From Candidatus Latescibacterota bacterium (lineage in GTDB: Bacteria; Latescibacterota; UBA2968; UBA8231): a stretch of DNA of 51,403 bases. Of this stretch, positions 15,398-51,403 are shown one piece after another (position 1 is the stretch's first letter; the number at the start of each line of letters is the position of its first letter). The stretch is taken from assembly GCA_022826515.1 (NCBI GenBank), contig JAJDUT010000056.1, positions 1 through 51,403 of the forward strand. The letters are read 5' to 3'. The notes beneath the pieces are model-generated. The model ran no database searches, was not told where the DNA came from, and saw nothing but the letters and a program-made list of their open reading frames with translations. The position numbers and the translations under genes were made by a program.

Positions 15398-16164
15398 GGC
15401 GACCTGCCGGCTTGCTCGGTTTCGAGCGAACGCAAGCGATCCCTGAGCGAAGCGGCCAGCTCAAATCGCTCCGCTTCGACCGCGGCCTGTAGATCAGCCG
15501 TCAGCCGCTCGCGCAACGTGCGCGGTCGAGTGCTTTCCACCTCGCTCTCCCACTCGTGCAAAAAGAGCAGTTCAGGGCATTCGTCGAGCTGGTCCAATTG
15601 ACCAATTTTGGCGAGAAACTCCTCAATTTCGACGATGCCTCGGCGAATCTCAGTTAGGGCCTCAGCATAGTTCTCTGCCTCTAGGCAGGCCAGCGCCCGC
15701 GCCTGCACTCGATGCGCTGTGACAAAAACGCGGTATTGTTCGGCTAACTGACGATCCTCGTCCTCTTCGGCGTATTCGTAGCACAGGTCGAGGATGGCGA
15801 GGTTGTGCTCGGCGTCCTCTTCGGCCCGTTCGTATTCTTTCAGTTCAAAAAAACCGATCCGCCGCCAGTAGTATTTCATGGCCTCTTGGGCCAGCTCGGA
15901 ACAATCCTCGTGCGAGAGACGAAAAGTGCCCGGACCGTGTGCTTTTTCCCACTCGCGTCGCTTTTGGCAGTAGTAATCCAACAGCGACACATAGCCGTGC
16001 GGACGGAGCGCGTCGGGACGGCCCCGCCACTCTAACTGCATCAAGCCCATATCCATGCGGATTTGGAGCTTGGCTCTGCCATTGCCGCCTCGTATCTTGC
16101 GCACGCTCAACTCGCCTGGGGCGTATTTCCAATCGCCGAGGATCGGGCCGATATCGCGTTCCAT
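15394..16164 (-). CDS. UVR-motif protein (McsA/UvrB-C-terminal-like)
   Basis: About 256 residues. The final 35 residues form a UVR helical-hairpin motif (ERLTADLQAAVEAERFELAA), known from UvrB, UvrC and McsA as a protein-interaction module. The preceding region is helical and acidic with possible TPR-like pairs, and the N-terminal 60 residues are beta-rich and unassigned. The start at 16164 (MERDIGPILGDW) is chosen over 16224 because it follows a GAGG and lies downstream of a consensus promoter. The upstream codons read as leader sequence. It is followed by the lipoprotein gene with an ATGA overlap. The function is unknown, and there is no McsB-like kinase beside it. Confidence 0.75.
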   Translation of the reverse strand: MERDIGPILGDWKYAPGELSVRKIRGGNGRAKLQIRMDMGLMQLEWRGRPDALRPHGYVSLLDYYCQKRREWEKAHGPGTFRLSHEDCSELAQEAMKYYWRRIGFFELKEYERAEEDAEHNLAILDLCYEYAEEDEDRQLAEQYRVFVTAHRVQARALACLEAENYAEALTEIRRGIVEIEEFLAKIGQLDQLDECPELLFLHEWESEVESTRPRTLRERLTADLQAAVEAERFELAASLRDRLRSLETEQAGRSP

Positions 16165-32607: not shown

Positions 32608-32691
32608 GTCTTGCCCTCAATGATACTGATCGCTTCCTCTACAATGGCAGTTTCTTCGACACGAGACCGTGCATCAGGATTCCTTGCATTT

Positions 32692-32722
32692 TCGTATGAG
32701 GCAAATTATCCACCTCATACGA
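32692..32722. promoter_or_regulatory. 10-bp inverted repeat upstream of the SIR2 gene
   Basis: TCGTATGAGG (32692-32701) and CCTCATACGA (32713-32722) are perfect complements separated by 11 bases. The geometry (21-base centre-to-centre) fits a dimeric repressor operator. It could also act as a terminator for the upstream restriction-enzyme remnant, although no T-run is present. It lies 85 bases before the SIR2 start and 4 bases after the remnant's stop. Confidence 0.5.
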
Positions 32723-32725
32723 GAT

Positions 32726-32875
32726 TCATACATCTTCCACTGCCGCTACTTCCTCGTCCGCCAACTCATACATCTCATAGACCAGTCGGTCTATCTCCGC
32801 TTCCTGCTCACCGGTGTCCGCCAACCCATTCATTAGTTGTCTATTCCCCCGTATCCATCGTTCGGGGAGGTCACG
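32726..32875 (-). pseudogene. C-terminal remnant of a type IIG-like restriction-modification enzyme
   Basis: A frame ending at 32726 encodes RDLPERW, then EQEAEIDRLVYEMYELADEE and AAVEDV. The segment EIDRLVYELYGLTEEE is the standard last helix of Eco57I/TaqI-type methylase-restriction proteins, so this appears to be the final 50 residues of such an enzyme. No start codon with a ribosome site precedes it. It overlaps the end of the ParA frame by 5 bases, which leaves only the tail of the original gene. It may represent the point where the ParA/AlbA_2 block joined the SIR2 block. Confidence 0.55.
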
Positions 32876-33893
32876 GATTCCCGAGATTGATTCTTTGTAT
32901 GATTTTCTTCGCCAAATCCCTAAAATCCTGGTGCGCGTCTTTTGCCGCGGCGGCATGGCTACCAATGGCACCATCGGCCGTGGTGAGGTGAAAGATGGGC
33001 TTGCGTGCTTCCTGAGCCATCGGCACCAAGCTCCGGTAGTGCTTGACGGTAGCGAGGGCGTGTTCTTTATCCTGTGCCGGTGTCTCGGGATACGGTCCTT
33101 CGTTATCGTCGCGTAGGTTGCGGGCGTATTCTTCCGGCATTCGATTGACCCACTTGTCATACGCCATCACGGGGCGATTCAGACGGACGCTGTGCTGTTG
33201 CACTACATAGCCGACGGGCTGCATGTTCCCATTCGGCAGGGGAAAGTCTGGTTGCGCCCAGTGATCCCTTCGCCGCTGCCAATCTTGTCGCCACCGATTC
33301 AGCGTCGGGCCGAGATTGCGCAAACCTTGGAGCGAAAACAGGTCAGCACCCAGCGGAACGATGATATAATCACTGGCAATCAGTGCGGAACGATTGATCG
33401 CACCAAGATTGGGGCCGACGTCGGCCAAGATGATTGAGGCGTCCATCTGTGCAGCCCCAGACTGCATGACGGTCGAGAAGGAAGTCAAAATGCGGAAGGG
33501 ACGGTACAGCTCGCTAGAACCCAATGCGTTAGGCCATTCTGATGACAGAGTATCTTCAAATCCGGCCAGCGCCAAGTCTCCTGGAATCAGGCACAGTCTA
33601 GATATAAGCGTAGATGTGATTTCGACGAGCGCCGGGTCTTTGATGTCGCCAACTCTCGTCAGAGGTCGGACGCATTGCAGGATAGTCTTCGCAGATGCCT
33701 CGTTGTCTTCATCCCATAGCTTTTCCAATTGATCTTCATCCAGAAATGCAGCGGTGAGATTCGCCTGTGGATCGAGATCGCAGGCCAGCACCCGATAACC
33801 ACTGTCGGACAACATCCACGCTAGGTGATAGACAAGCGAAGTCTTGCCGACACCGCCCTTGTTGTTGAAAAAAGTCAAAACGGGAACGGTCAT
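32871..33893 (-). CDS. ParA-family ATPase
   Basis: A 340-residue MinD/ParA ATPase. Deviant Walker A FFNNKGGVGKTSLVYHLAW (KGGVGKTS at 12-19), then ACDLDPQANLTAAFLDEDQL and the Walker B-like ASIILADVGPNLGAINRSAL. It has an unusually long C-terminal part (residues 220-340) with a Pro-rich stretch, as in ParA proteins encoded with AlbA_2-domain partners on islands. No ParB gene is present. Its ATG overlaps the stop of the AlbA_2 gene (ATGA), so the two are a unit. Chromosome partitioning is unlikely; a role in island maintenance or defence is inference. Confidence 0.85.
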   Translation of the reverse strand: MTVPVLTFFNNKGGVGKTSLVYHLAWMLSDSGYRVLACDLDPQANLTAAFLDEDQLEKLWDEDNEASAKTILQCVRPLTRVGDIKDPALVEITSTLISRLCLIPGDLALAGFEDTLSSEWPNALGSSELYRPFRILTSFSTVMQSGAAQMDASIILADVGPNLGAINRSALIASDYIIVPLGADLFSLQGLRNLGPTLNRWRQDWQRRRDHWAQPDFPLPNGNMQPVGYVVQQHSVRLNRPVMAYDKWVNRMPEEYARNLRDDNEGPYPETPAQDKEHALATVKHYRSLVPMAQEARKPIFHLTTADGAIGSHAAAAKDAHQDFRDLAKKIIQRINLGNP

Positions 33894-35110
33894 GTCTGGT
33901 CATCCTGGCAAGACAGTATTGTGACTTGAACGTTGTTCATATCAACATTGAATTCCATTTCAGGGTGCCCGGCTTGTCGAAGGAGTCGATTGGCCAATGG
34001 AATGCCTATACCATAGCGTTGCACGAATCCCAAATTTCTCATCGCCTCTGCGACATTGGGATTGCGGTACGATGTTATGCCAGATCTACCGAAATTATCT
34101 ACTGTTACCGAACCGAACACCCCCCCGGGACTCAGTATTTCTATGCGGTTGTCGTACCAGTAAACTCGGGTGGGAGCGTAGTTCCCCTCGTATGATCGGT
34201 GCATGACTGCATTGCGAGCGATTTGCTGGATCGCTGAAATCGGATACGTACTGACTCGCTTCTCGGTTGGTCTCGATGTAAAGTCAACCGCTGTCCGGTT
34301 GTGTCCATTCAGCTTTTCGTCGAGGCGGCGCAGTACGTCCGTAATAGTCCCACTGATTGCTTCTTCATCGGATATGGGGTCTGTTAATTCATTGCCGACA
34401 AATCTCAAGAATTGAATGTACGCTCCCGGTAGATGATCCAGCGTCCGTTGGCCCAGTACGAGTATCCCCAACACGGTTGGCACAGGGTCGTCAGCAGAGA
34501 CAATCATCTTGGCTGCGGCTAACCGTTCTTCGAGGCTGCGTTCGTTAGCTTCCAGAATTTCGCGGTCAAAAGCCTGTGGCAAGTATTCATGCTCGAACTG
34601 GAACAGGTTGAGATCGCTCAAGGTGGCAAAAGAGACAGGCTGAAGGTCAAAAGGGCGGTCTCCGTGTCGCCGCTTTTCGTTGAGAATCCTCTCGTCTTGG
34701 GATGTGGCGATGCCACGGCGAGGACCGATGCGGACATGGATAGCACCCTTAAAGCGAACCGGCGGAGAGTTGGAGGGTTGCACTGTGATCACCGCAATTT
34801 CCTTGCCTTGCAGCCTATGCTTCTCCACCGTCAGCGAGGGCGGAGGTACAATGTTGCCATCGGTTTTCATATCGGCCAACTGCTGGAGCAACCGATCTGT
34901 AACCACTAGAGTGCCTATCGTTCCATCGTTTTTTACACCAACGAAGATGAGGCCGGGTTCTTCGTGCCCAGCCAAATCATTGGCAAAAGAGCAGATAGCT
35001 TCCCTGATTCTAGTGGCGGCATCACCAGACAAAGACTCCTTGAACTCGACGCGGTCAGTTTAGCCGGCTGCGATGATTTGTAGCAACTCTTGTTCTGTAA
35101 AATATGGCAT
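33890..35110 (-). pseudogene. AlbA_2 / HATPase protein interrupted by an in-frame TAA
   Basis: The family normally starts with a short helix followed by a TVEFKES-type AlbA_2 motif. Here the ATG at 35110 gives MPYFTEQELLQIIAAG and then TAA (35060-35062), after which the same frame continues TDRVEFKESLSGDAATRIRE without further interruption to 33890. A single base change (GAA to TAA) explains the stop. The open part has the AlbA_2 domain (residues about 20-140 of the intact product, with GLIFVGVKNDGTIGTL) and an HATPase_c_4-like C-terminal region with QIARNAVMHRSYEG, IEILSPGGVFG and GIGIPLANRLL. A shortened product could start at the TTG at 35032, but would lose the EFKES motif. The gene is followed by parA with an ATGA overlap. 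These proteins bind nucleic acid and ATP; the precise role is unknown. Confidence 0.8.
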
Positions 35111-39458: not shown

Positions 39459-40769
39459 TCAATCCGCATCGACGAATTGCCGGGCTAATGATCCTTCTCG
39501 CGTCAGCGCGTACACCACGATATTCACGCCCAAATTATAGACCAACGGCTCCTCACCACTGGTGATAAACGGACTATTGGCCACATCTATATCCGCCTGT
39601 TCCCGTTGGGCAGTTCCCGCCCAGAAATCGGCGTAGCCCCGCATTGAATATACCCCTACCAACTGTTCCCCTACCACGATGCCCTCCAAATAGTCTGGGG
39701 TTAGCGGCACTGATCCTGTTCCTGTATAGTGCATATCGCGCATCCCCCGTGGGAGACTGTTTACATCGTAGAAGCAATGATAGACCGGATGGGTTATCTC
39801 CAATCGGCTAAACTGCCAGTCCTTCCATTCTTGATAACCCACTGCTTGGAAGCTAGCGCGAATGAGCGAACGCACTGCGGGAATGTCTAATTCGTCGTCG
39901 CTGTAATCGTGTAACAAATTGCTCACAATATCCGCAAACAGGAACCCGCCCGAAATCAAATACGCCCCTAAATTGGCCGCTTCCACCTCGGTAAACTCAA
40001 AAGGCCCACTCGCCGTCAGGAGGACGAAGGGCACCTGCAAAAGCTGCGGATCGTCGAGCCGAACCGCGTCGAGCACTTCTACGCGGACTTGCGTACTGGC
40101 GATCATCTTATCGGCCAACCCGTGCAGCATCTGTTTTTCTGCCAGTTGGCGCGTCTGATACAGTCGGCGCGATGTTTCCGACTCAGCCCGGTCAATGGAA
40201 GGACTATAAACACTAGACAAATAGAGGAAGCCCTTGAGCTGACGCCGGTCGTTGGGATCAACCACTACCATCGCCCGGTGCCGACCCGTGTCCAGCGCCT
40301 GCACATCCATCAACTCCAAGGACAAGTCAATCTCATCGGCCCCCTGCCGCGTCCCTGCCAACGCCCCAGCGCGCATCTGCGGCCCAATGTGCCGAGTGGG
40401 GAAATCTGGCACCGGCAGCATCAGCCGATCCGGCAGCGACGCCGACGGCAGCCAAAAAGCCGAGGACTTGAACACGGGCAAGGGACGCGACGCCGACGGG
40501 GCTGGTCGCATGGCCACGACTGGGGCGGCCTGCAAGGCCGGGCGGCGTATCAAGGGGCGTTGGAGAGGCCGTTGGCGGCGGGCGAGGGTGCGTTGTGGCG
40601 GCGGCCGTTTGGTAAACTTCACCATGATCGGAGGTAAGACGGGAAATTGAGTGACCCGCTCACGGTGCGTGATCCCAAAAATTACCAGCAGATGCATGGC
40701 CAACGACAACGCCAAGCAACTGTGCAGTTTTCTATTTTTATGGAATGAGACCTTCCATGACCGTCTCAT
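39459..40769 (-). CDS. DUF4159 protein with TonB-like N-terminus
   Basis: A 436-residue protein. The N-terminal 55 residues contain one membrane helix (LALSLAMHLLVIFGI) and then a TonB-like Pro/Arg-rich stretch (RPPPQRTLARRQRPLQRP), which places the body outside the inner membrane. Residues about 220-430 match DUF4159: VPFVLLTASGPFEFTEVEAA, LGAYLISGGFLFADI, and ITHPVYHCFYDV, with a Rossmann-like flavodoxin/GATase fold of unknown function. It is the last gene of the long minus-strand run, 37 bases after the FG-GAP gene, and may couple envelope energy or signals to that surface system. Confidence 0.78.
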   Translation of the reverse strand: MRRSWKVSFHKNRKLHSCLALSLAMHLLVIFGITHRERVTQFPVLPPIMVKFTKRPPPQRTLARRQRPLQRPLIRRPALQAAPVVAMRPAPSASRPLPVFKSSAFWLPSASLPDRLMLPVPDFPTRHIGPQMRAGALAGTRQGADEIDLSLELMDVQALDTGRHRAMVVVDPNDRRQLKGFLYLSSVYSPSIDRAESETSRRLYQTRQLAEKQMLHGLADKMIASTQVRVEVLDAVRLDDPQLLQVPFVLLTASGPFEFTEVEAANLGAYLISGGFLFADIVSNLLHDYSDDELDIPAVRSLIRASFQAVGYQEWKDWQFSRLEITHPVYHCFYDVNSLPRGMRDMHYTGTGSVPLTPDYLEGIVVGEQLVGVYSMRGYADFWAGTAQREQADIDVANSPFITSGEEPLVYNLGVNIVVYALTREGSLARQFVDAD

Positions 40770-40806: not shown

Positions 40807-42675
40807 TCAATCGTCTGTTTTTGTCTGGTTGGACAAGATGTATAGGCCACTGCCCCCACCGCGAACGGCATTCTCCAGCACGGCCAAGTCTATATCTCCG
40901 TCTCCATCCACATCGCCTTCTACGACCGTCCCGCCCAACCCTTGCAGTGGATAGCGGCCTTCCCGCCGTGGCACTCCGTTCTTTCTTCCCATGTTGACCA
41001 CGAGTGCCGGCTGGCGGAAATCGCGATCGACAAACACCGCGTCCAAGATACCATCTTCATTGAGGTCGGAAAACACCACGTCCTGTTGTACGTATCCCCT
41101 TTCATACCATGAGACCTTGTCCAAGACGCCGTCGCCGCGATTGATTAAAAAATCCAGCCCGGTGAGCACAGGCCCCATAGCCGTAGAGGCGATGGCCCTG
41201 CCCGCCACCATATCTGTATCGCCATCCCGATCAAAATCGCCCGCATAGCAGAGCAAATCCGCCGCCGCATCCCCTCGAAGATATTCTTGGATGGTTTCTC
41301 CATTGTCGTTCAGATAGGTCGCCATATAGTCATGCGGAGTGCCAACATCGGGGCCTGCCCAAAGCAGCCCCGTCTTGCCGCCTCCCGGGACATGGTGGAT
41401 CAGACGCATGGGAAACCAATCGAATTCGCCCAACTCAGGTGCCAGAGCCATTTGTTCGTCGAACTGTCCCGTACCGTCATTGAGCAAAATGACGGCACGT
41501 ACCGAAGTCTTGGCGTAAAACTCGGTCAGCCATATATCCTCGTCGCCATCCCCATCGACATCGCCTATACCCAAGGGAATCGCTCCATCCACTTGCCGTG
41601 CCACCGACCAACCGGCGGATGAATGCTCCAATAGGTCAAGTGAACGACCAAAGCCCACGATGAGTTCCATGCGGTCATCGCCGAGCAAATCAGCACCGAC
41701 CAGCCTCGGTATGGGACCGATTTCGGGGAATGGTTCCATGCGGACCTTTGGGGAAAAGTAGCCCCTTTCATTGAACGCGCACAGCCAACCGGCCCTGCCG
41801 GAATTAGTAATGGGTTGCCAGTCTTCCCATACCGCCCCCATATCCATGTCGCCATCGCCATCCAGATCGCCCAACTCGGCTACGGGTCGGCCGCGCTGTC
41901 CTATGTCTAATCCATGCAGATCTAGAGGATAGAAATGCGGTAGGGCAAAGAGTGCCCCGACAGGATGTGGCTCTTCCCCTCGCGGCGGTGCGCCCTCTGG
42001 GTCTGTTCTTTTCGTATGGGTCAATTCGATCCAATCGATTTCCACGGCCTCGGGGATTTCTTCCGGCCCTTCCACATCCTTTGAGTAGTTGAACAAGGGC
42101 AGGCGAAGGCGTATTTCGAGCAATTCATCTTTCCAGACGCGCCGATAAATCTTCTCCTCTCTTACATAGGTCTTAGACGCCACACTATCAATCGTCACCT
42201 CCTGCCAATCCGCAGTATAGGTATGGCGTTGGCTTTTGAGCAAAGTGATATGATCGATCCCCGTTTCTGACTGTGCACTGATAAAGAATCCTCGGAGGTA
42301 CTCATTAGCAGGATTCTTCCAGAAGAGCGTAATCTGACTTTCAAGCGGCTGTGTATGCGGCACGCGCAGGCGCAGGCGGACGCGGTTGAACAGGGCCGAA
42401 TCGCGGCCAATTGGCGGGGAGATTAATTCGACTATCGGCCTGATACCGGGGGCAAAGTCCCGGGGAGCAACGCGCCATATTCCGTCGGTTGTTTCCGAAT
42501 GCAACGGTGCTCTAATTATTGCACCCGCAGCCTCACTTTCCCAAGCGACCCAACCTTGGGTATCGCCTTCTTGGGCAAAATCCCAAGTGATGGCACCAAG
42601 GTGCGAAGGAAGTAGCAACGATAGAGCTACAAACGCAACCAATCCGCCGCATCGTAGAGACATATCTTGATTCAT
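40807..42675 (-). CDS. Secreted FG-GAP/VCBS-repeat protein without sorting domain
   Basis: About 622 residues. Signal peptide LVAFVALSLLLPSHLGA. An N-terminal beta-sandwich begins ITWDFAQEGDTQGWVAWESE, close to that of the protein at 47531-49699 (both have DSALFNR/DRVRLRLR and VDWIQL-like segments). It is followed by five or six calcium-binding FG-GAP blades, for example DLDGDGDMDMGA, DVDGDGDEDIWL, DFDRDGDTDMVA and DVDGDGDIDLAV. These form a beta-propeller of the integrin-alpha kind. Unlike its paralogue, it ends without the C-terminal FlgD-like sorting domain. The start is placed at 42675, overlapping the TPR stop (ATGA); the longer frame to 42873 runs antisense into the TPR gene and lacks support. 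Confidence 0.82.
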   Translation of the reverse strand: MNQDMSLRCGGLVAFVALSLLLPSHLGAITWDFAQEGDTQGWVAWESEAAGAIIRAPLHSETTDGIWRVAPRDFAPGIRPIVELISPPIGRDSALFNRVRLRLRVPHTQPLESQITLFWKNPANEYLRGFFISAQSETGIDHITLLKSQRHTYTADWQEVTIDSVASKTYVREEKIYRRVWKDELLEIRLRLPLFNYSKDVEGPEEIPEAVEIDWIELTHTKRTDPEGAPPRGEEPHPVGALFALPHFYPLDLHGLDIGQRGRPVAELGDLDGDGDMDMGAVWEDWQPITNSGRAGWLCAFNERGYFSPKVRMEPFPEIGPIPRLVGADLLGDDRMELIVGFGRSLDLLEHSSAGWSVARQVDGAIPLGIGDVDGDGDEDIWLTEFYAKTSVRAVILLNDGTGQFDEQMALAPELGEFDWFPMRLIHHVPGGGKTGLLWAGPDVGTPHDYMATYLNDNGETIQEYLRGDAAADLLCYAGDFDRDGDTDMVAGRAIASTAMGPVLTGLDFLINRGDGVLDKVSWYERGYVQQDVVFSDLNEDGILDAVFVDRDFRQPALVVNMGRKNGVPRREGRYPLQGLGGTVVEGDVDGDGDIDLAVLENAVRGGGSGLYILSNQTKTDD

Positions 42676-43868
42676 AGAGCACCACCAGCCATCATGTTTT
42701 CTATGTCCTCTGCTTGCTCTATTTGACCCAGTTGACGGAACATTTTCTGAGCCTGTTTCCAGTTCAATATCGCGTCGTAGTGCTTTCCCCAATCCGCGTA
42801 CATAATGCCCAACCACACGTGAGCGACAGCACACGCCTCGGCGTTGCCTAGGCTCTTTTGGCAGGTCAGGCATTTGCGGTACATTGGCTCGGCGCGGTCA
42901 AACGCACCGGCAGCACAATACAACTCTCCTAAGAGCCCTGCCTGCCAAGCAATGCCCTGTACATGCTCTATTTCCTCGAACAACTGTAGTGCTCGGTGCG
43001 CCATCTCGGTCGCGCTCTTGTACTCTTGACGCTGCTGATATACCATGCTTAAATAGCCAGCGGCGTCAGCTTGGTTGCGCTTATGTCCCAAGCGCTCCTG
43101 CACGGATAGGGCTTTCCGATACATGGATTCGGCCTCGTCGAGCCGCCCAGTCTGAAGGTAAATTTGTCCCAAGGTGCCGTATTCAAGCCCCAGCCCCTCA
43201 AGGCGACCAAGCAGTTCGTCTATGGCCAGTGCTTTATGCAACAATTCTTCGGCATGAGCCATTTCGCCGTGAGCCATGTACACGCGCGCGAGACTTTGGT
43301 ACTGGTTGGCCATACCTGCGCGGTCGTCTAGGGCCCGGTATGTATTCAGGGATTCCTCTAGATACTCCCGTGCGCGGTCTAACTGGTCGCGGGCAAAAAA
43401 CAGATTGCCCATGTTGCAGTAGTCCACGGCCCGTCCAGCCTGATCTGCCAATTCTTCGCGCAAATGCAAGGCATAGCCGTACAGGCGCTCGGCATCGGCA
43501 AAATCGCCCTGCATGTGCGCCAGAAAACCCAAGTTGCTGTAATTATCCGCTAGGCGCACCCGGTCTTCACTCGCCTTGTTTATTTCGTAAGATGCCATGA
43601 GCAGTTCCCACGCCTTTGCCAAGTTGCCCTGCACCTCACACAACAGCCCCCAGCCGCTATAGGCATCCGCTTCCAACTGGACATTCTCCGACTTTTCGGC
43701 CAAAACTTGGGCACGCTGGTAGGCCGCCTCTGCCTGTTCAAGTTGGCCGGCTCTCTTATGGGCATGGCCCAGCCGAAGAGAAGCCGCAGCCATTTCTTGT
43801 TTATCGCCGGCTATTTCAGCTTGGGCCAACTCTTCCAGCAACTGTGCTTCTATTTCTCGGCGACTCAT
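42672..43868 (-). CDS. Tetratricopeptide-repeat protein
   Basis: About 398 residues composed almost entirely of TPR units of 34-40 residues. Examples are SLRLGHAHKRAGQLEQAEAA, NYSNLGFLAHMQGDFADAER, NMGNLFFARDQLDRAREYLE, LEYGTLGQIYLQTGRLDEAE and LGIMYADWGKHYDAILNWKQ. It has no signal peptide and no other domain, so it is a cytosolic protein-protein scaffold, of the kind of TPR_12/kinesin light-chain repeats. It is joined by ATGA overlaps to the glycosyltransferase before it and the FG-GAP gene after it, so it belongs to this operon. The start at 43868 (MSRREIEAQ) is chosen because of that overlap. Confidence 0.85.
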   Translation of the reverse strand: MSRREIEAQLLEELAQAEIAGDKQEMAAASLRLGHAHKRAGQLEQAEAAYQRAQVLAEKSENVQLEADAYSGWGLLCEVQGNLAKAWELLMASYEINKASEDRVRLADNYSNLGFLAHMQGDFADAERLYGYALHLREELADQAGRAVDYCNMGNLFFARDQLDRAREYLEESLNTYRALDDRAGMANQYQSLARVYMAHGEMAHAEELLHKALAIDELLGRLEGLGLEYGTLGQIYLQTGRLDEAESMYRKALSVQERLGHKRNQADAAGYLSMVYQQRQEYKSATEMAHRALQLFEEIEHVQGIAWQAGLLGELYCAAGAFDRAEPMYRKCLTCQKSLGNAEACAVAHVWLGIMYADWGKHYDAILNWKQAQKMFRQLGQIEQAEDIENMMAGGAL

Positions 43869-44941
43869 GGGATTCGCGCTTCGCTCGGTTCGGCCCATGT
43901 CGGGTGATGGTCCAACAAGGTCCGCAAATCGCGCAATCGGTCGGTGGGGCCGTGTGCGTACGCTTGGTGAAATGCTACCAAATCTCTCAGCAGGGTCTCT
44001 TCGGGCAGGAGAGGGTCTGGCCAGATACTGGCGTACCAGAAGTGGAACAGCAGTAGTTTGGGATCACTGTGTTTCTGTTCCATGTACCGCATGGCTCGCT
44101 GGGGGGCGAGCATCTCTTCGCGTGCTTTAATCGGGTCGGAAAAATCGTGGTAGTGATAGAGATGATAGGCCCTGGCCTCCGGTACGAAGCAGGGCCGACA
44201 GCCGTACTGTTGCAACCGATAAGCCAAGTCCCACCCTTCGCTAAAGGCCATGGCGGGATCAAAACCGCCTACCTCCAAAAAAGCCTCCCGCAAAACCGCG
44301 CCGTTGTTTGGGAAAAAGCCCAGCCAACCAATAGGAGAATCGGGATATTGTGCAAAGAGTTCGGTGATCTGTTCCTGTAGGATCTCAAGTTCGGGAAAGG
44401 GATACCAGCCAATCACGGCACGAGCTTCGATGCGGTCAAAAGCTCCAAGTACCATATCCTCAGTTAGGATCAATTCCTGCCGATGGACGCGGACGTACTC
44501 GCGTACTACGCTCGGCGTCTTGTCCTCCATCGGCGTACCCCGTTGGGGATCTTGCAGATATTCCAAACCGGGCAGACTGTATCCCGCACCACACAACAGA
44601 GACTCTCGCCCACCCTGTTCCAACGCTTCGATATGGCCTTGGAGCCATTGCGGATGCGGCAAAGCGTCGCCGTCCAAAAAAGCGACGAATGCTCCTGCTG
44701 CGGCCTCCACACCCCGGTTGCGAGCCACACAACGCCCTTCGTTGGGCCGCAGGCGAACGATCTTTAGGTCCATCTGGCGACCTACCTCGTCGAGCATCTC
44801 GGCTGTTCCATCGCTACTGCTGTCGTCCACGACCACGACTTCAAAGCGTACAACCGACGCGATCTGGCCGCGCAATCCGGCTAATACTAGCCGCAGACGT
44901 TCCTTTTGATTGTGAGTAGTAACAACAACGGAAATATCCAT
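43865..44941 (-). CDS. Glycosyltransferase family 2
   Basis: A 358-residue GT-A enzyme. It starts ISVVVTTHNQKERLRLVLAG, with VVVVDDSSSDGTAEML and the DxD-type metal site in GAFVAFLDGDALPHPQWL. The acceptor-side motif is GFDPAMAFSEGWDLAYRLQ. It has no membrane helices. It probably transfers a sugar to a protein, peptide or glycan in the cytosol. The start at 44941 lies one base after the stop of the fused glycosyltransferase gene. The 119 upstream codons of the open frame are antisense shadow. Together with that gene it forms a two-glycosyltransferase unit close to the Cys-rich peptides. The sugar and acceptor are unknown. Confidence 0.88.
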   Translation of the reverse strand: MDISVVVTTHNQKERLRLVLAGLRGQIASVVRFEVVVVDDSSSDGTAEMLDEVGRQMDLKIVRLRPNEGRCVARNRGVEAAAGAFVAFLDGDALPHPQWLQGHIEALEQGGRESLLCGAGYSLPGLEYLQDPQRGTPMEDKTPSVVREYVRVHRQELILTEDMVLGAFDRIEARAVIGWYPFPELEILQEQITELFAQYPDSPIGWLGFFPNNGAVLREAFLEVGGFDPAMAFSEGWDLAYRLQQYGCRPCFVPEARAYHLYHYHDFSDPIKAREEMLAPQRAMRYMEQKHSDPKLLLFHFWYASIWPDPLLPEETLLRDLVAFHQAYAHGPTDRLRDLRTLLDHHPTWAEPSEARIP

Positions 44942-44942
44942 C

Positions 44943-47441
44943 TCAGAGGCACTCCATGACAAGACGACACTCGTATTGTAAGCCCTCCGGCACGTGGGAT
45001 TGCGGCCCGGATGCGGTCTCGCGCCAAGCCAACAGGTGCGGTAGGGCCTTGACCGAGTTGGAACATACCACGCGGTGGCAATCCAACTGGCCAAAGTAAA
45101 AATCGACGTAGCGGTCGCCGACTTCGGCGATATGGCGGCGCAATGCCTCGTCGGCGACATTGTCTTTGGTCGTCGCCTGCGAGCCAATGACAATACCGTG
45201 AAACTCCACTGGCATCCAACCGCGCTCCGGCGCAAAAACTTCTGCCCAAGTGTGCCCAAAGATAATGTCTTCAAAGGTCGCCCATTCAAAACGACCATCG
45301 CCTGTGGGGTAAACAGCTAAGGCGCCAGTGACCTCCCGCGCCGCGACTCCCTGTAGGCGACAAAAGGCGATAAAGGCATTGGCCAGCGTTATGCAGTGGC
45401 CACCGCTGTCGTTCAACACCACGTGGATAGAAGAGGCCAAGTCTTGCGATCGCTCTTTGGTTTTTTTGAAGCGCTTGGTCGCGGCCAATTGGGCGTAGAT
45501 GCGACGCGCCTTTTCCAACGGATCTTCCACTCCGTCCAAGTCCAGTTCGGCAAAAAAGTTTTGCACCGTTGCCGCTTGTGCCAGTTCGGGATCAATCTCT
45601 GTGTAGCGGCGATATTCGCGGTCCGATAGCTGGGCTGGCCCCGTTGGGCCCATGCGGCCCTGTACGGTCAACTCACAGGTGTAGGAGAAATCCAACCAAG
45701 CCGGCGCGGCCTCTTCCACCCGCACGGGATAGCCGTAGAAAAAACCGGCCTGCGGCGCAAAACAAGTTCGCAACTCGTCTGGTGCCCAAGCACACAACTC
45801 GATATCCTCCTGATGTGGACTCGGTATGGGATAGGGGAGAAAGAGCCGGGCCTCCATGTCGGGCGGCAAGGTGGATGGGTAGAGCCGATAGGTATAGGTG
45901 AGGCGATAGCGCTGACGATGCCGGTGGAGTGCGATGCGGCCATTCGCCTGAGAAAAAAAATCGCGGCGTTTCTCCTCAAGGGCGCGATAATCGCTTTCAA
46001 AAAATGCGGGCTCGTGGTCGTAGAGCCAGTTCCAAGAATCCGCCCGGTCAAAGGCGACCTTGCTACCCTGCCGGAAGTGCGGCATACCGCGACTCAGGCT
46101 GCGGTGGAGCAAAGTGCGGATCTCCTCGACGCCGAGCTCGGCCGGGGTGCTCTGGTTGAGGTGGTGGACAAATTCGGGCTCGGGCATTAGGTAGGCTGAC
46201 TCTATTTGGTGAACGGAACGCTGGTCGACAAAAAAGGCGTCAACCACATTTGCCGCGGCCTCGCCCCCGTCCCATTCCCCAATGTGTGCAGCAAAGGCTT
46301 GGCAACGCGGGGCAAACTCGCTGTGCCGAGCCAAGAGATCGTCTATGGCCTCCAACAGAGGGTCCACCCGAAAAAACGCATCCCAGTTGAGCTTGTAGCC
46401 CAAGCCGAGATCACGCACTCGATTGAGGTGGTATTCTTGGTCCAAGTGCTCGGGGGCACCGATCACGGGTACGCCTTGGCGCAAGGCGTGGTAGATGGAA
46501 CCAATGCCGCCAATACCCACGAAGAGCGCCGCACGCGCCAACACCCAAGCCGCCGGCACAAAGTCAACAACGCGGATATTGGGCGCGGCGACCTGTCCTG
46601 ACCAACGACCCGCGGTGGTCACTAAGACGCGATAGGGTTTATAGGCCATGCGGGGCAGCACCTCGTCGAGAAAACCGGGATAAGCACCGGTGCTGCCGCA
46701 GTTGAAATAGACCAGCGGCAATTGATCGTCCCAATCGTCCAACGCCGCGATGGGACGGATTGGAGGCGACTCGATCAGCGGCCCCACATAGCAATAGTGC
46801 GAGGGAGTATCTTCACCCGGCGGGTGAAACGGGGGCACATCGGCCACCAAATAGAGGATATGGTGCGGCTTGAAGGCTGGGACGTTCTCGCGGGCGTATT
46901 CATCGAAGGCCTCAGTGCCCAAGGAAAGAGCCGTGGGCAGGCGAATGGGAAACGGATAGCCCGGTTGGTTGTAGGCCGCCTCTATCAGGGCTATATCTAC
47001 CCCTTCAAGAGAGGCGGTAAGCGGCAAGGTGGGCCGCATGTCCGCCAGCGCGAGGGCGGGGCGGAGCCGCCTTATGAGCGCCCGTTCGGCCTGCACACAG
47101 CGGTCTATCCACTCCGCATTGTAATAGCCGTAGTCGCTGCGAGACACGTACTCGTCCATGCGGCTTTGCGGCATGGTTTCAATCTCGTACACTGGAAAGC
47201 CTTCGTCGGCGATCCGGGGGGTGTGCGGCCCCACACCGGCGAATTCCACCGGGTAGCCGCGTGCCCGCAGTGCTCGTCCCACGACCAGAGGGCGGATGGT
47301 GTGGGCCAAACAGTAGCCGTGGAAAAAGATTAGTACGGGATACTCGTGGCGCAGCAGGTTCTTAACTGTGCTGGTCTGTTCCAGATGGACGCTCAGATGC
47401 TGTAAGCCAGCCGCTATGTGTTGGCGCAGTTTATTCAGCAT
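44943..47441 (-). CDS. GT-B glycosyltransferase fused to a transglutaminase-like domain
   Basis: An 832-residue fusion. Residues about 30-425 form an MGT/UGT-like GT-B glycosyltransferase: LIFFHGYCLAHTIRPLVVGR at the start, LVYFNCGSTGAYPGFLDEVL, then the donor-binding ARAALFVGIGGIGSIYHALR and GVPVIGAPEHLDQEYHLNRV. A linker (about 430-530) leads to a beta-rich part. Residues about 650-800 form a transglutaminase-like cysteine domain: Cys in NDSGGHCITLANAFIAFCRL, His in IIFGHTWAEVF, and an Asp/Glu-type third position in GWMPVEFHG. Such domains cleave or cross-link peptides. No signal peptide is seen, so both domains act in the cytosol unless exported otherwise. The ATG follows AGGAGC. The fusion suggests a glycosylation step paired with peptide handling of one substrate. 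Confidence 0.82.
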   Translation of the reverse strand: MLNKLRQHIAAGLQHLSVHLEQTSTVKNLLRHEYPVLIFFHGYCLAHTIRPLVVGRALRARGYPVEFAGVGPHTPRIADEGFPVYEIETMPQSRMDEYVSRSDYGYYNAEWIDRCVQAERALIRRLRPALALADMRPTLPLTASLEGVDIALIEAAYNQPGYPFPIRLPTALSLGTEAFDEYARENVPAFKPHHILYLVADVPPFHPPGEDTPSHYCYVGPLIESPPIRPIAALDDWDDQLPLVYFNCGSTGAYPGFLDEVLPRMAYKPYRVLVTTAGRWSGQVAAPNIRVVDFVPAAWVLARAALFVGIGGIGSIYHALRQGVPVIGAPEHLDQEYHLNRVRDLGLGYKLNWDAFFRVDPLLEAIDDLLARHSEFAPRCQAFAAHIGEWDGGEAAANVVDAFFVDQRSVHQIESAYLMPEPEFVHHLNQSTPAELGVEEIRTLLHRSLSRGMPHFRQGSKVAFDRADSWNWLYDHEPAFFESDYRALEEKRRDFFSQANGRIALHRHRQRYRLTYTYRLYPSTLPPDMEARLFLPYPIPSPHQEDIELCAWAPDELRTCFAPQAGFFYGYPVRVEEAAPAWLDFSYTCELTVQGRMGPTGPAQLSDREYRRYTEIDPELAQAATVQNFFAELDLDGVEDPLEKARRIYAQLAATKRFKKTKERSQDLASSIHVVLNDSGGHCITLANAFIAFCRLQGVAAREVTGALAVYPTGDGRFEWATFEDIIFGHTWAEVFAPERGWMPVEFHGIVIGSQATTKDNVADEALRRHIAEVGDRYVDFYFGQLDCHRVVCSNSVKALPHLLAWRETASGPQSHVPEGLQYECRLVMECL

Positions 47442-47530: not shown

Positions 47531-49699
47531 CTATTCGATTTTGACCATCTTGCGGGTGCGCGTCTGGTCGCCCACCTGCAACCGATACACATAGACTCCA
47601 GCGGCGACGGATTGGCCTTGGGCGTCTCGGCCATCCCAAGTTAGTTGATGCTCGCCTGCCGCCAGCGAACCCGCCCACACTTGGCGCATCGGCTGCCCCA
47701 AGACGTTGTAGATGGTTAAGTCCACGTCGCCAGCTTCTGCCGCCAGTGATACGGGGATGGTGGTGGCCGGATTGAACGGGTTGGGGTAGTTAGCACCGAG
47801 GGCAAAGGCCGCTGGCGTGGCCACCGTCTCAGCAGCGATAGCTGTGGCCGGGACGCCTTGGTTGAGAAAGACGAAGGCCCCGCCGGGACCACCTTCCACA
47901 CTCCTTCCCAGCACCACCAGATCAGTCGCCCCATCGCCGTTGAGGTCGCTGGCAAAAACCTCGCCGCCCGTGCCCGGCAGCCGATAGCGGCCTTCAACGA
48001 CGGGTATGCCATCGCGCTGGCTGATCAGCACCACCAAGGCCGGCCCGGTCGCCAAGTCGCCATCGACGACGGCCAAATCCTGCAGGCCATCGCCGTTGAG
48101 GTCGCTGGCAATGGCCTCATGCGGCAAGATCGCCTGCGGATCGAGCAGGATATGGCGTACCACCACGCCCGAAGCGTCTAACTGCCACAGCGCCAAGCCG
48201 TGGCGGGTAAGGTTGGTGTTAGTAGGGTCGAATCGTAGATTCTGCTCGAAAGACCCGATTAACTCCACCCTTCCATCGCCATCCAAGTCGGTGAGCAGGT
48301 GCAGATCACAGGGAGGGACTGCGGCCTCAAAAAACAGCGGCTCTGCCTCGCTGGCCGCCCACGGCCGGGTTAGTTGCCAAGTACCTGGAGGCTGGGAGCA
48401 CGCTTGATTCCATAATAGGCGCACGGCTTCGCCCAACGGTTGCCCGCCCAGCAGCAAAGGAAAGAGTCGTTCTTCGCTGTTGAGGGCGAACCGATCCCTG
48501 CGGACAAACCCGGCGGCTCCATCGTTGTGCCATAAGATCACGTGAGACGATTTGCCGTCATCCTCCCCGACCAATAGATCCACATCGCCATCGCCATCGC
48601 CATCGGCTAGGCCAACCAACCAGACATCGGGCTCGGTCAGTTGCAGGATCGTTTCAAAGCCGTCCTTGCCTTGGTTGTGCCACAGTTCAACGGGCCTTTC
48701 AAAGGCTAGGTCGAGGAGCCCATCCCCGTCGAAATCACCCCCTGCGACTCTGGGCGAGCCCGTGGTTGGCCCTACTTGTACTTCTCGGATGGAGACCAAG
48801 CCACCCCACCCGTCGTTGAATGCCACCGTCCAGCCCCAGTGTTGCTCGGGCAGGAAACTGCCATCGGCATCTGTGGAGCGCACCCAAACCGCCACCAAGT
48901 CCACATCCCCATCGCCGTCTATATCGCCCAAAGTGCCGTTGTTGGACTGTGGCCCCGAAACAACTTCTATCCCCTCGCCGACGGGAAAAAAGTCGGGCGC
49001 GGCAAACAGAGCATTGGGCAATCCCGCCTCCACTACCACCTCCCGGGGCTGCAACTCCCCCAGCAGCAACTCTTCGGCCCCCGTCAGTTGAATCCAGTCC
49101 ACTTCTAAAAACTCAGGATGGTCAGCCGGCCCCTCGGCGTGGTCGTTTAAGTCTAAGTCTAGATGAAAATCAAAGAGGGTGTCCTGCCAAGTGACCGCGA
49201 TCCCTTCTTCTGGGTTCGCTGCCGCAGCGGCTTCCAAGGCGCGGAGGTCTATCGTGATGTTTTCCCATTCCGTGGGATAGAATTGAAGACGGCCTGTAAG
49301 AAACGGTGATTGTGTGTCAAATTGTATATAGCCTCCGCGACTAGCGTCGATCAAGCGTTTGTACTCGGTATTGAACCACTCCATCACGAGCCGCCCTTCG
49401 GTGGGACGATCATGGATGATGCGCAGCCGTAGGGTGACCCGGTCGAACAAAGCCGAGTCTTCGCCAATCCACGGCGAGCGCAATTGAATGGCCGGTCGTT
49501 GCGCACCCGGCACCGGCGCGATGCGCCAAACGCCGTCGGCGACTTCGCTGTACACTGTGGAGACACTACCCCTATCAGTACTGAGGGCACTCTCTCGGGC
49601 CGTCCAGCCCCAAGTGGTACCTTCGTCAAAATCCCACGTTAAGGCCGAGGCTCCAGGTGGAACAGTCAATAACCCAACAACAAAGAGCAAGCAGCGCAT
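47531..49699 (-). CDS. Secreted FG-GAP protein with C-terminal FlgD/T9SS-like sorting domain
   Basis: A 722-residue protein with a signal peptide (LLFVVGLLTVPPGASA) and an N-terminal sandwich (LTWDFDEGTTWGWTARESAL) shared with the protein at 40807-42675. Several calcium-binding FG-GAP blades follow (DIDGDGDVDLVA, DFDGDGLLDLAF, DGDGDGDVDLLV, DLDGDGRVELIG, DLNGDGLQDLAV, DLNGDGATDLVV). The C-terminal 90 residues form the FlgD-like sorting domain: GANYPNPFNPATTIPVSL, LTIYNVLGQ, WDGRDAQGQ and the last beta strand RKMVKIE. In T9SS-bearing lineages this domain directs proteins to the cell surface. The ATG follows GGAGGAG. It is the first gene after the two Cys-rich peptides and may present or bind them at the surface, which is inference. 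Confidence 0.87.
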   Translation of the reverse strand: MRCLLFVVGLLTVPPGASALTWDFDEGTTWGWTARESALSTDRGSVSTVYSEVADGVWRIAPVPGAQRPAIQLRSPWIGEDSALFDRVTLRLRIIHDRPTEGRLVMEWFNTEYKRLIDASRGGYIQFDTQSPFLTGRLQFYPTEWENITIDLRALEAAAAANPEEGIAVTWQDTLFDFHLDLDLNDHAEGPADHPEFLEVDWIQLTGAEELLLGELQPREVVVEAGLPNALFAAPDFFPVGEGIEVVSGPQSNNGTLGDIDGDGDVDLVAVWVRSTDADGSFLPEQHWGWTVAFNDGWGGLVSIREVQVGPTTGSPRVAGGDFDGDGLLDLAFERPVELWHNQGKDGFETILQLTEPDVWLVGLADGDGDGDVDLLVGEDDGKSSHVILWHNDGAAGFVRRDRFALNSEERLFPLLLGGQPLGEAVRLLWNQACSQPPGTWQLTRPWAASEAEPLFFEAAVPPCDLHLLTDLDGDGRVELIGSFEQNLRFDPTNTNLTRHGLALWQLDASGVVVRHILLDPQAILPHEAIASDLNGDGLQDLAVVDGDLATGPALVVLISQRDGIPVVEGRYRLPGTGGEVFASDLNGDGATDLVVLGRSVEGGPGGAFVFLNQGVPATAIAAETVATPAAFALGANYPNPFNPATTIPVSLAAEAGDVDLTIYNVLGQPMRQVWAGSLAAGEHQLTWDGRDAQGQSVAAGVYVYRLQVGDQTRTRKMVKIE

Positions 49700-49840: not shown

Positions 49841-50209
49841 TCAGGCGATGCAGGAGCAGGACCAGCTTCCTTCCTGCGTACAGCCATAACTCTCCGAGTT
49901 GCAGTATTTTGCCTTGAAGACCTTTATGGGCTGTCCCTTGTTATTAAACGCACATGGTTGGTTATCTAGACAAATCCATGAGCAATTTTTGCTCGAACCG
50001 GCACCTTCGGATATTCCGTGGCACTCATCGGCGGGAACCGCCTGCACCCGCTCAGCCGTGCCAAACACCACCGCCAAGCCAGCCACCACACTACTCAGCC
50101 AACCCAGGGCCAACCCCTGGCGCGGCTCGACGTGGCCACTAGACGACATGGCGAACTCCACCAGCGGTGCCAACAGAGTCGCCTCCAAAACAAACGTCAA
50201 AGACTGCAT
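49841..50209 (-). CDS. Secreted Cys-rich peptide 1 (8 Cys), 122 aa
   Basis: Not a family I recognise with certainty. Residues 1-57 are a long leader: an amphipathic N-region, then a hydrophobic helix (LALGWLSSVVAGLAVVFG, 33-50) and a signal-peptidase-like end ERVQA before VPADEC. The rest, 65 residues, holds eight cysteines in the order C-x12-C-x3-C-x5-C-x16-C-x6-C-x7-C-x-C, with Trp in NCSWICL and GSWSCSC. Such a density suggests four disulfides outside the cytosol. The long leader and Cys-rich body recall the methylamine dehydrogenase light chain (MauA), and a MauD-like redoxin is encoded upstream, but no twin-arginine or clear cofactor motif is present. The ATG follows AAGGAGA. It is the downstream member of a tandem pair. 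Confidence 0.78.
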   Translation of the reverse strand: MQSLTFVLEATLLAPLVEFAMSSSGHVEPRQGLALGWLSSVVAGLAVVFGTAERVQAVPADECHGISEGAGSSKNCSWICLDNQPCAFNNKGQPIKVFKAKYCNSESYGCTQEGSWSCSCIA

Positions 50210-50354
50210 AATTTTTCTCCTTACAAAAAATGATAAATCATCAACAGACCATCAGGCCTGACCTAGGATCGAATCTACGAGAATGGGACAATACCTTCTC
50301 TCTGGGCCGTAGGGATGACAGATTCGGGTCCTCTATCCAAGCTTGAACAACCCC

Positions 50355-50392
50355 AGCCAATGGGACACCCGGCCCAGAGTGCCCCATTGGCT
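50355..50392 (-). terminator. Hairpin 6 bases after the second Cys-rich peptide gene
   Basis: AGCCAATGGGACAC (50355-50368) pairs with GTGCCCCATTGGCT (50379-50392), loop of 10 bases. Compared with the hairpin at 49795-49833, one C-G pair has become T-A on both arms. One G-C pair has become A/C on this strand, which is a U-G wobble in the minus-strand RNA. Conservation of pairing despite change points to a functional RNA structure on the minus strand. Confidence 0.75.
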
Positions 50393-50398
50393 ATACGT

Positions 50399-50764
50399 CT
50401 AGCAGCTACAGGACCAGCTTCCTTCCTGTGTACAGCCGTAATTCTCCGAGTTGCAGTATTTTGCCCTGTACCACCCTATGGCGTCCCCATTGGAATTAAA
50501 CCGACATGGATTTTGTGGTTTTAGACAGATCCATGAGCAATTTTGGCTCGAGCCGACACCTTCGGATATTCCGTGGCAGTCATCAGGGTCAACCGCCTGT
50601 GCCCGGTCAGCCATACCGAACACCACCGCCAAGCCAGCCACCACACTGCTCAGCCAACCGAGAGCCAACCCCTGGCGCGGCTCGACGTGGCCGCTCGACG
50701 ACGTGGCGAACTCCACCAGCGGTGCCAGCAGAGTCGCCTCGAAAACAAACGTTAAGGATTGCAT
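50399..50764 (-). CDS. Secreted Cys-rich peptide 2 (8 Cys), 121 aa
   Basis: Paralogue of the peptide at 49841-50209. The 57-residue leader differs from the other copy at only five positions (8, 21, 51, 53, 55), ending DRAQA. The core keeps all eight cysteines and the ends ECHGISEG / DDCHGISEG and CTQEGSWSCSC. It differs mainly between the third and fifth cysteines (C-LKPQNP-C here, C-LDNQP-C there, then a different FNSNGDAIGWYRAKY segment). This conserved-leader, variable-core pattern is what secreted precursor peptides show. The ATG follows AGAGGA. It lies 125 bases after the redoxin gene stop and 190 bases before peptide 1; all are on the minus strand. The function is unknown. Confidence 0.78.
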   Translation of the reverse strand: MQSLTFVFEATLLAPLVEFATSSSGHVEPRQGLALGWLSSVVAGLAVVFGMADRAQAVDPDDCHGISEGVGSSQNCSWICLKPQNPCRFNSNGDAIGWYRAKYCNSENYGCTQEGSWSCSC

Positions 50765-50889
50765 AGTTAAGTCCTCTTTTGAGGTAAGAAAAAATGATCA
50801 ACAAGCCAGCAAGGCTTCTGATCTGAATCAAACTTGCAAACGCGTGATACACCTCCTTTCTGGGCCGTAGTGGTGATTGGCTAATAGCC

Positions 50890-51402
50890 TCAAGAGCCTT
50901 CGCTAGGCCGTGCTCGGCCAAAATCCTGGACAAAGTCCCAAGCCGATGGCCACCCCACCGCCAAGTCCACCACATTTCCGTCGGTATCGATCTGATACAC
51001 CGCAGGAACCCCTGGGGTTTTGTATGCCTGTGAAATTGAGCCAGCCGAGTCGATCAACACAGGGTACGTAAAGGAATAGGTCTCGCTAATTTTCCGAGCA
51101 CCCTCCGCCCCGGTGCAGATCAACACCAGTTGTTGATCCGCATTCAGTTCAAAGGCTTCGAGTTCCTTATTCAATTTTTGACAATACGGACACTCCGCCG
51201 TAACAAAGGCGAGCAGAGTGGGCTTTCCCTGCAATGCGCTCAGTGCCATCGTGCCGCCCTGCACGGCCGGCAGCGCAAAGTCCGGCGCAGCCTCCCCTGC
51301 TTGAAGCACCTTGGACAGCGGATCGGTCGAAGGTTCGGTCCAGACCACCGGCGAGAGCGCCGACGAAGCAGGACGCAACGCCAAAAAGAGCACGGCAGCG
51401 GC
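50890..51402 (-). CDS. TlpA/MauD-like thiol:disulfide oxidoreductase (5' end cut by window)
   Basis: A redoxin domain (AhpC/TSA type) of about 140 residues. GEAAPDFALPAVQGGTMALS leads to the active site FVTAECPYCQKLNKELEAFE (CPYC), with the cis-Pro loop in TPGVPAVYQIDTDGNVVDLAVG. The upstream residues (AAAVLFLALRPASSAL) are hydrophobic and open to the window edge, so the protein has an N-terminal membrane anchor and the real start lies beyond 51403. The form, with a membrane anchor and no long leader, resembles MauD and TlpA, which act on cysteine pairs outside the cytosol. It directly precedes the two Cys-rich peptide genes and is the natural candidate to form or correct their disulfides. 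Confidence 0.82.
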   Translation of the reverse strand, partial: AAAVLFLALRPASSALSPVVWTEPSTDPLSKVLQAGEAAPDFALPAVQGGTMALSALQGKPTLLAFVTAECPYCQKLNKELEAFELNADQQLVLICTGAEGARKISETYSFTYPVLIDSAGSISQAYKTPGVPAVYQIDTDGNVVDLAVGWPSAWDFVQDFGRARPSEGS

Positions 51403-51403
51403 A

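Follow-up and report, generated by a model that had tools for sequence, protein, structure and literature searches.

The stretch of DNA analysed here (the window) comprises 51,403 nucleotides of a Candidatus Latescibacterota bacterium (contig JAJDUT010000056.1), and its last part holds a minus-strand gene block in which two small cysteine-rich peptides are encoded between a redoxin gene and a gene for an FG-GAP protein. Peptide 2 (50399-50764, 121 residues) has a 57-residue leader (about 50594-50764) with an SG-x11-W signal, followed by an eight-Cys core. Peptide 1 (49841-50209, 122 residues) is a tandem copy with the same leader, five differences apart, and a diverged eight-Cys core. The original prediction, made from the sequence alone, had described two such peptides; both open reading frames (ORFs) were found on the minus strand, and direct reading bore out a Cys order that is kept while the loop between Cys3 and Cys5 differs. 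Redoxin 1 (50890-51402, minus strand) is TlpA/ResA-like with a CPYC motif and is cut at its 5' end by the end of the window. It matches the AhpC-TSA/Redoxin family (PF00578, 1.6e-17), with ResA- and MauD-type models below their cut-offs, and in an alignment its full-length homologues (188 residues) open with a hydrophobic stretch. On the other side of the peptides lies the FG-GAP protein (47531-49699, minus strand; FG-GAP_3 2.1e-16), which ends in a type IX sorting tail (about 47531-47788; TIGR04183 38.7 bits, cut-off 23).

A family of cysteine-rich peptides with a constant leader

Neither window peptide matches Pfam or NCBIfam at E<=1. Of 199 candidates from a search with peptide 2, 181 proteins scored E<=1e-3, the window's own two included, which is far more than chance would give. 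The same genomes also contain peptides with a second, shorter leader type (MQSLREFFTSSSGL...), and a search with an alignment including this type found 346 proteins among 2552 candidates. By sequence similarity the peptides form a large, undescribed family in Latescibacterota: relatives were located in seven genome loci, six bearing the label Latescibacterota or Latescibacteria and one Gemmatimonadota. The single 6-Mb chromosome of genome G001 alone has 16 matches with one peptide profile (A1) and 20 with the other (A2).

An alignment of 42 members shows an almost invariant leader and a core with little conservation apart from some Cys. The leader signal consists of [SD]G, exactly eleven residues and W; a hydrophobic stretch comes next, in most cases with A-x-A after it. 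Among the 120 best matches of each search, with only new members counted for the second, [SD]G-x11-W is found in 119/120 and 87/88, and the number of core Cys is even in 110/119 and 85/87. The same spacing occurs within the first 80 residues of 6 of 249 other ORFs of at least 200 residues. It is retained in the divergent peptides of G039, G024, G004 and G002 (contig C25). Many cores end in CxC. In eight leader proteins of the studied loci the Cys-rich part is followed by a type IX-like tail, and the tail of the one in locus L049 scores over the TIGR04183 cut-off.

Variation is concentrated in the core. Between peptides 1 and 2 the proportion of nonsynonymous differences (pN) is 0.040 in the leader and 0.194 in the core, and its ratio to the synonymous proportion (pN/pS) is higher in the core than in the leader in 28/28 and 105/105 pairs, the core values resting on uncertain alignments. 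The cores are, in these comparisons, hypervariable and the leader constant. Simple pS had suggested gene conversion homogenising the short leaders; a four-fold-site control removed this, with values of 0.22 for leaders, 0.31 for cores and 0.26 for FG-GAP partners in G001. The AlphaFold2 model of peptide 2 has four strands in the core with a predicted local distance difference test score (pLDDT) of 85-95 in blocks of ten residues, a leader under 50 and a predicted template modelling score (pTM) of 0.44. One short-leader core was predicted as strand-helix-strand-strand (pLDDT 74-89, pTM 0.39). Structure comparison of these predictions gave no significant match.

Literature searches found no description of the peptide family, its leader signal or the assembly of genes around it. 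They likewise found nothing on Latescibacter with FG-GAP or with type IX secretion, nothing on prepilin peptidase with redoxin or thioredoxin and Cys-rich or disulfide-rich proteins, and nothing on NVEALA. NVEALA peptides may be an analogue of the present ones. The available portion of a paper on sponge Latescibacterota (PMC12993501) mentions neither FG-GAP, secretion nor type IX. The other protein families involved are all known; the novelty would lie in the peptides, their leader signal and the way the genes are assembled. We call the system categorically new because it failed the tests for the known kinds that were tried, not because its function is known.

A constant leader, a hypervariable disulfide-rich core and dedicated disulfide machinery would suit peptides released as bacteriocin-like antagonists, with the FG-GAP protein as immunity protein, carrier or receptor; we consider this unlikely. 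The original prediction had drawn a narrower parallel with glycocins, which have a GG-type leader and a dedicated C39/ABC exporter. The thiol oxidoreductase and family 2 glycosyltransferase (GT2) genes in one gene block are indeed shared, but the leader, the partner protein and the copy number differ. In the alignments a hydrophobic helix and A-x-A close the leader, which is not of the GG type, and the glycosyltransferase pair is linked to the peptides or their maturation genes in the core clade only; the glycocin-like reading is not supported. Among the neighbouring ORFs scanned none had a C39 domain, and a MacB-type permease lies near the L150 peptide.

FG-GAP partners and promoters of the peptide genes

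The neighbours of 32 short peptides, from the window and loci L042-L065 only, were compared. The set leaves out the eight leader proteins with type IX-like tails and includes the third L049 peptide, whose core is out of frame, and a few G001 ORFs in which the profile match has internal stops. The next same-strand non-peptide gene within 700 nucleotides encodes an FG-GAP protein for 26 of the 32, compared with 12 of 228 other genes. Five have none in reach: window peptide 2 (exactly 700 nucleotides away, beyond peptide 1), L043:2099 (FG-GAP at 1406), L043:10973, L058 and L065 (FG-GAP at 1116, behind a 150-residue ORF). For L061 no gene is in view. The original prediction had pointed to glycosyltransferases and FG-GAP proteins downstream and had asked whether redoxin, peptide and glycosyltransferase recur together. 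Both downstream gene kinds are present in the window and the redoxin genes do recur across loci, but the gene adjoining the peptides, and their steadiest neighbour, is the FG-GAP gene and not a glycosyltransferase; the FG-GAP protein had been given too little weight.

Most of these FG-GAP proteins appear to end in a type IX secretion tail. All three tested have a TIGR04183 tail over the cut-off of 23 bits (38.7, 28.4 and 34.9), and SprA is over its cut-off in 9/9 genomes tested. By these matches the FG-GAP partner qualifies as predicted type IX secretion cargo. Core identity tracks FG-GAP identity. Twenty-four peptide/FG-GAP pairs were listed and 23 used (the third L049 peptide was dropped; the L043, L062 and L042:18885 pairs were not entered), giving r 0.68, a value reached in 0/5000 permutations. 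For the 17 short-leader pairs, core against whole FG-GAP protein gives r 0.72 (0/5000 permutations), and 84 between-genome pairs give r 0.70. By 100-column stretches over the 17 pairs, r stays at 0.56-0.75 as far as column 750 and falls to 0.43 and 0.24 over the tail; core against the peptide's own leader gives r 0.19.

The window also records an abrupt change in similarity within this gene pair. The FG-GAP tail and downstream genes are 98-99% identical to those on contig C10 of G002, whereas identity is only 69-84% in redoxin 1, the peptide and the body of the FG-GAP protein. Against L050, identity passes from 98-100% to about 80% near 47,900-47,950, roughly at the start of the FG-GAP tail. 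No other compared locus exceeds about 85% identity in the divergent part. This looks like replacement of a peptide/FG-GAP block. A chimeric assembly is a possible alternative: L050 is a metagenome-bin contig, as the window may be, and three versions of the region are present in G002.

A -24/-12 (sigma-54) site with a score of 9 or 10 out of a maximum of 10, for example TGGCACGCAACTTGC, lies 150-172 nucleotides upstream of 13/24 peptide genes. All 13 belong to the 16 short-leader genes, compared with 0/8 long-leader genes, and such sites occur in 1.2% of 3000 random 250-nucleotide stretches of the same loci. A 1046-residue protein combines Reg_prop repeats with a sigma-54 interaction domain; it has homologues in L044, L048, L049, L053, L055, L056, L059 (two), L060 and L065, in some cases at a distance of several kb from the peptide. 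Fusions of a propeller (Reg_prop, Y_Y_Y) with a sigma-54 activator were noticed in peptide loci at L044:8906-12058, L048:6016-9183, L059:5228-11947, L065:3661-6801 and others. As a separate observation by eye, a 5'-untranslated element, AGAAAGGAGGTG, with a long Shine-Dalgarno-like match, is shared about 80-110 nucleotides before the peptide starts of both leader types, far from their own ribosome-binding place. It lies at 50850-50861 and about 50290-50303 in the window and also upstream in L044, L046 and L048.

The proposed maturation cassette and its likeness to known systems

Of the eight loci with long-leader peptides, six have redoxin 1 just upstream of them (the window, L050, L051, L052, L062 and L065; not L049 and L063). 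It belongs to a larger conserved cassette with an A24 (prepilin-type) peptidase, an FMN-binding-like CxxC protein (FMNB; FMN, flavin mononucleotide) and a second redoxin. The order in L065 is A24, FMNB, redoxin 2, redoxin 1, peptide, and L050 has the same order, its A24 match containing one internal stop. L042 and L152 have FMNB, A24, redoxin 2 and redoxin 1, then tetratricopeptide repeat (TPR) and glycosyltransferase genes, redoxin 1 of L152 being a 60-residue ORF only. L150 reads ApbE, FMNB, redoxin 2, redoxin 1, A24, peptide; L151 and L058 read redoxin 2, redoxin 1, A24, peptide; L153 reads redoxin 2, A24, peptide; and L061 reads A24, redoxin, peptide. The cassette genes thus stay together in differing orders in all nine loci. 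By analogy with these loci, the second redoxin, FMN-binding-like gene and A24 of the present block would lie beyond base 51403. The original proposal of a new exported Cys-rich family with a dedicated redoxin is supported.

The A24 proteins of L065, L042 and L061 match PF01478 over its cut-off (9.4e-8, 4.5e-6 and 4.4e-6) and carry YxDxxxRxIxN-type and GDAKL motifs, that is, both catalytic Asp motifs; the L050 copy is incomplete. Of 64 genomes from the phylum, eight have a match to the A24 profile (G001-G004, G024, G039, G046 and G062). The peptide profiles were found in seven genomes each and in eight together, namely the A24 set minus G039 plus G047. Co-occurrence of A24 and profile-found peptides in seven genomes gives a Fisher value of 1e-7, or 2e-9 with G039, values that overstate independence because the genomes are related. 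G039 is added because direct reading found a short ORF with the leader and eight Cys directly 3' of its A24 gene, so that all eight A24 genomes have peptides.

In the three aligned FMNB proteins an SGAT/TGAT motif is present and CxxC is invariant. The RnfG model gives 1.8e-5, under its cut-off, and P0214 bears the NCBI name FMN-binding protein. FMNB was found at E<1e-30 in 6/64 genomes and with any match in 25/64, the weaker matches lying mostly over the SGAT region. An ApbE gene lies inside or adjoins FMNB in the G024 cassette, and ApbE has one match in 9/9 genomes. These features make FMNB, which is only weakly FMN_bind-like, a candidate FMN-binding flavinylation substrate. Clusters of ApbE, thioredoxin-like and DUF4266 genes, some with DsbD, are known (eLife 2021, PMC8238504), and the CxC ending of many cores of the present family is a likeness to them. 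As far as that account reaches, their flavin protein is DUF3570, whereas here it is RnfG/FMN_bind-like with CxxC and A24 is added. The words 'prepilin' and 'latescibacter' are absent from its main text. No window gene matched DUF4266, and no DsbD was found among the genes scanned, a genome-wide search not having been made.

The presence of an A24 peptidase raises the possibility that the peptides are pilin-like, with A24 cutting before the helix and Cys-rich-headed subunits forming a type IV-like fibre. Like type III signal peptides of A24 prepilin and preflagellin systems, the peptides have a hydrophobic helix preceded by a conserved polar stretch; a head predicted to be folded comes after the helix. 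The A24 that travels with them has both catalytic Asp motifs and a weak match to the archaeal C-terminal domain (0.11), and its G001 copy matches the FlaK model at 9.8e-8, far under the cut-off. Unlike in those systems, however, the signal is [SD]G-x11-W with A-x-A; there is no E5, a W standing at the conserved place, and not every peptide has G at -1 of the helix (exceptions are L058, L151 and L056). A-x-A follows directly after the helix, leaving no spine, and proteins with type IX tails use the same leader. No pilus assembly genes were noticed in the cassettes, no genome-wide search for them having been made. We regard a pilin-like fibre as distinctly improbable.

The redoxin followed by a small, exported, Cys-rich protein bearing a long leader recalls methylamine dehydrogenase (mauB-mauE-mauD-mauA), and the same succession was seen in 8/9 MauA-type plasmid loci compared. 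MauB is a beta-propeller. The peptides might accordingly be Cys-rich small subunits of a redox enzyme, bearing a protein-derived or metal cofactor on a large propeller subunit and served by a MauD-like redoxin; the large partner subunit and the flavin-type and redoxin partners would fit. The original prediction had noted a likeness to MauA, and a trace of it persists in the leader: against the MauA leader A1 scores 17.6 (shuffled maximum 15.7, 0/200 as good) and A2 14.6 (3/200), a weak similarity with hhalign probabilities of 9.1% and 3.6%, or 8.7% and 9.4% with full alignments. The likeness does not extend further. Core hhalign scores of 8.5 and 8.0 were reached by 185/200 and 156/200 controls, PF02975 is over its cut-off in 0/64 genomes, and some cores have no Trp (L044:8239-8520). 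The cores, unaligned to MauA, are hypervariable, unlike a catalytic subunit, and there are many copies per genome, with A24 and the FMN/CxxC protein in place of MauE. The type IX tail on the propeller protein argues for use at the surface. We therefore hold such an enzyme to be very unlikely; because the peptides did not prove to be MauA, the mau parallel is not an identity and may describe how the peptide system works rather than what it is. Candidate Streptomyces ribosomally synthesized and post-translationally modified peptides from decRiPPter also combine a small precursor with MauE-type, once MauD-type, genes outside a mau cluster (PMC7794033). To the extent that source details them, they differ in phylum and in having no A24, flavin protein or FG-GAP partner, a comparison by gene content and not by precursor sequence.

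The favoured reading and the neighbouring genes

The reading we favour, at about an even chance, is that the peptides are small exported proteins, stabilised by disulfides, which form a variable surface recognition module together with the cognate FG-GAP protein encoded next door and have a dedicated maturation. The leader, with its [SD]G-x11-W signal, hydrophobic helix and A-x-A, would take the peptide through the inner membrane, where the two TlpA-type redoxins would make or correct disulfides and pass electrons to the membrane-anchored FMN/CxxC protein. The A24 peptidase, with its archaeal features, would trim the leader. The folded core would then join its own FG-GAP protein, which would exit by type IX secretion, and the two together would serve to bind ligands or to adhere. 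Sigma-54 promoters would turn on individual pairs that lie outside the cassette operon. The peptide family and its leader rule, the hypervariable cores with mostly even Cys, the co-occurrence of cassette and peptide, the FG-GAP adjacency and ectodomain co-variation and the sigma-54 sites are read from sequence; the direction of electron flow, flavin attachment, the A24 step, physical binding to FG-GAP and the recognition role are what we infer from them.

Several observations weigh against this reading. Both G062 peptides depart from the exact leader motif (one has EDG-x10-W, the other no clear SG). G047 has leader proteins and no A24 match, the A24 match on contig C10 of G002 has an internal stop, and redoxin 1 of G046 is present only as a 60-residue ORF. 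FMNB scores 18.2, 16 and 21.1 bits against Pfam FMN_bind, under the cut-off of 22, and was not found in G004, G047 and G062; redoxin 2 of L065 is under Pfam cut-offs. Regular occurrence of the peptides without the redoxin and glycosyltransferases, named in the original prediction as telling against it, is half borne out: a redoxin gene lies within 5 kb of 10 of the 32 short peptides and 22 are without, yet every A24 genome carries peptides. That A24 performs the trimming is uncertain, since the peptides do not keep the canonical A24 site (G preceding the helix, E at +5) and their A-x-A points to signal peptidase I. The distant cassettes of L149, L150, L151 and L058 show no FG-GAP gene after the peptide in view, and L153 shows one several genes on. 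Leader and tail vary little, hence the lower r there, and core and FG-GAP protein could co-vary because they are inherited together as linked genes, without being in contact.

A bolder form of the recognition reading, which we offer tentatively as the less probable, is a ligand-propeller system in which each peptide would be the diversifying tip of one FG-GAP protein. Pairs would be inherited and exchanged as blocks between constant leader and tail and switched by sigma-54 through propeller-type activators, all served by one shared flavin-linked redoxin and A24 line that reads a new export signal. If true, this phylum would have a new export signal, a flavin-to-disulfide maturation line borrowing a pilin-type peptidase, and a hypervariable peptide repertoire. 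Constant leaders joined to variable cores locked by disulfides, with a cognate receptor-like partner, are reminiscent of venom and recognition systems in eukaryotes; finding such a system in bacteria would permit tests of repertoire diversification and provide a natural library of small folded scaffolds. Latescibacterota are known mainly from metagenome genomes. The names of some of these assemblies presumably reflect sponge work, and recognition of a host or neighbour is therefore a plausible use.

Downstream of the FG-GAP gene, the minus-strand block continues with a GT1-type glycosyltransferase fused to a transglutaminase-like domain (44943-47441; Transglut_core 7e-15, EryCIII-like_C 4.8e-9), a combination of which we know no other example. 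Its homologues accompany the cassette in L042, L050, L051, L052, L062, L065 and L152. The GT2 gene (43865-45298, minus strand) matches Glycos_transf_2 (7.9e-25) from residue 123; its true start is probably near 44941, the longer ORF overlapping the preceding gene. The glycosyltransferase pair was not found at the more distant cassettes, L149 having a GT1 gene. The next gene (42672-43898, minus strand) encodes a TPR protein (TPR_12 2.8e-35) that is syntenic across loci, and the glycosyltransferase and TPR genes of the window are 98-99% identical in nucleotides to those of G002. A second FG-GAP protein, with no peptide directly before it (40807-42873, minus strand; FG-GAP_3 5.9e-15), is followed by a DUF4159 protein (39459-40769, minus strand; PF13709 9.2e-19), which recurs in peptide loci, with relatives near peptides in L042, L044, L045, L049 and L053.

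Other genes were noticed around the peptide loci. A 365-residue WD40 protein (L045:10455-11552; PF00400 5.3e-73) precedes a leader protein with a type IX-like tail, and 365-residue ORFs stand at comparable places in L043 and L048. Genes that by eye resemble a MacA/MacB-type efflux system, and are mutually homologous, were noticed in four genomes, each time close to one peptide locus (L065:2-2833, L046:15117-17272, L055:13793-17142 and L059 from about 14010-16025 onward), and L150:3155-5650 encodes a MacB-type permease (PF12704). Within the window, the interval 29059-35032 holds, as judged by eye, a 1182-residue ORF with a SIR2-like start beside a ParA-like ORF (32871-33893) and an ATP-binding-regulator-like ORF (33890-35032), and is possibly a defence or mobile island.

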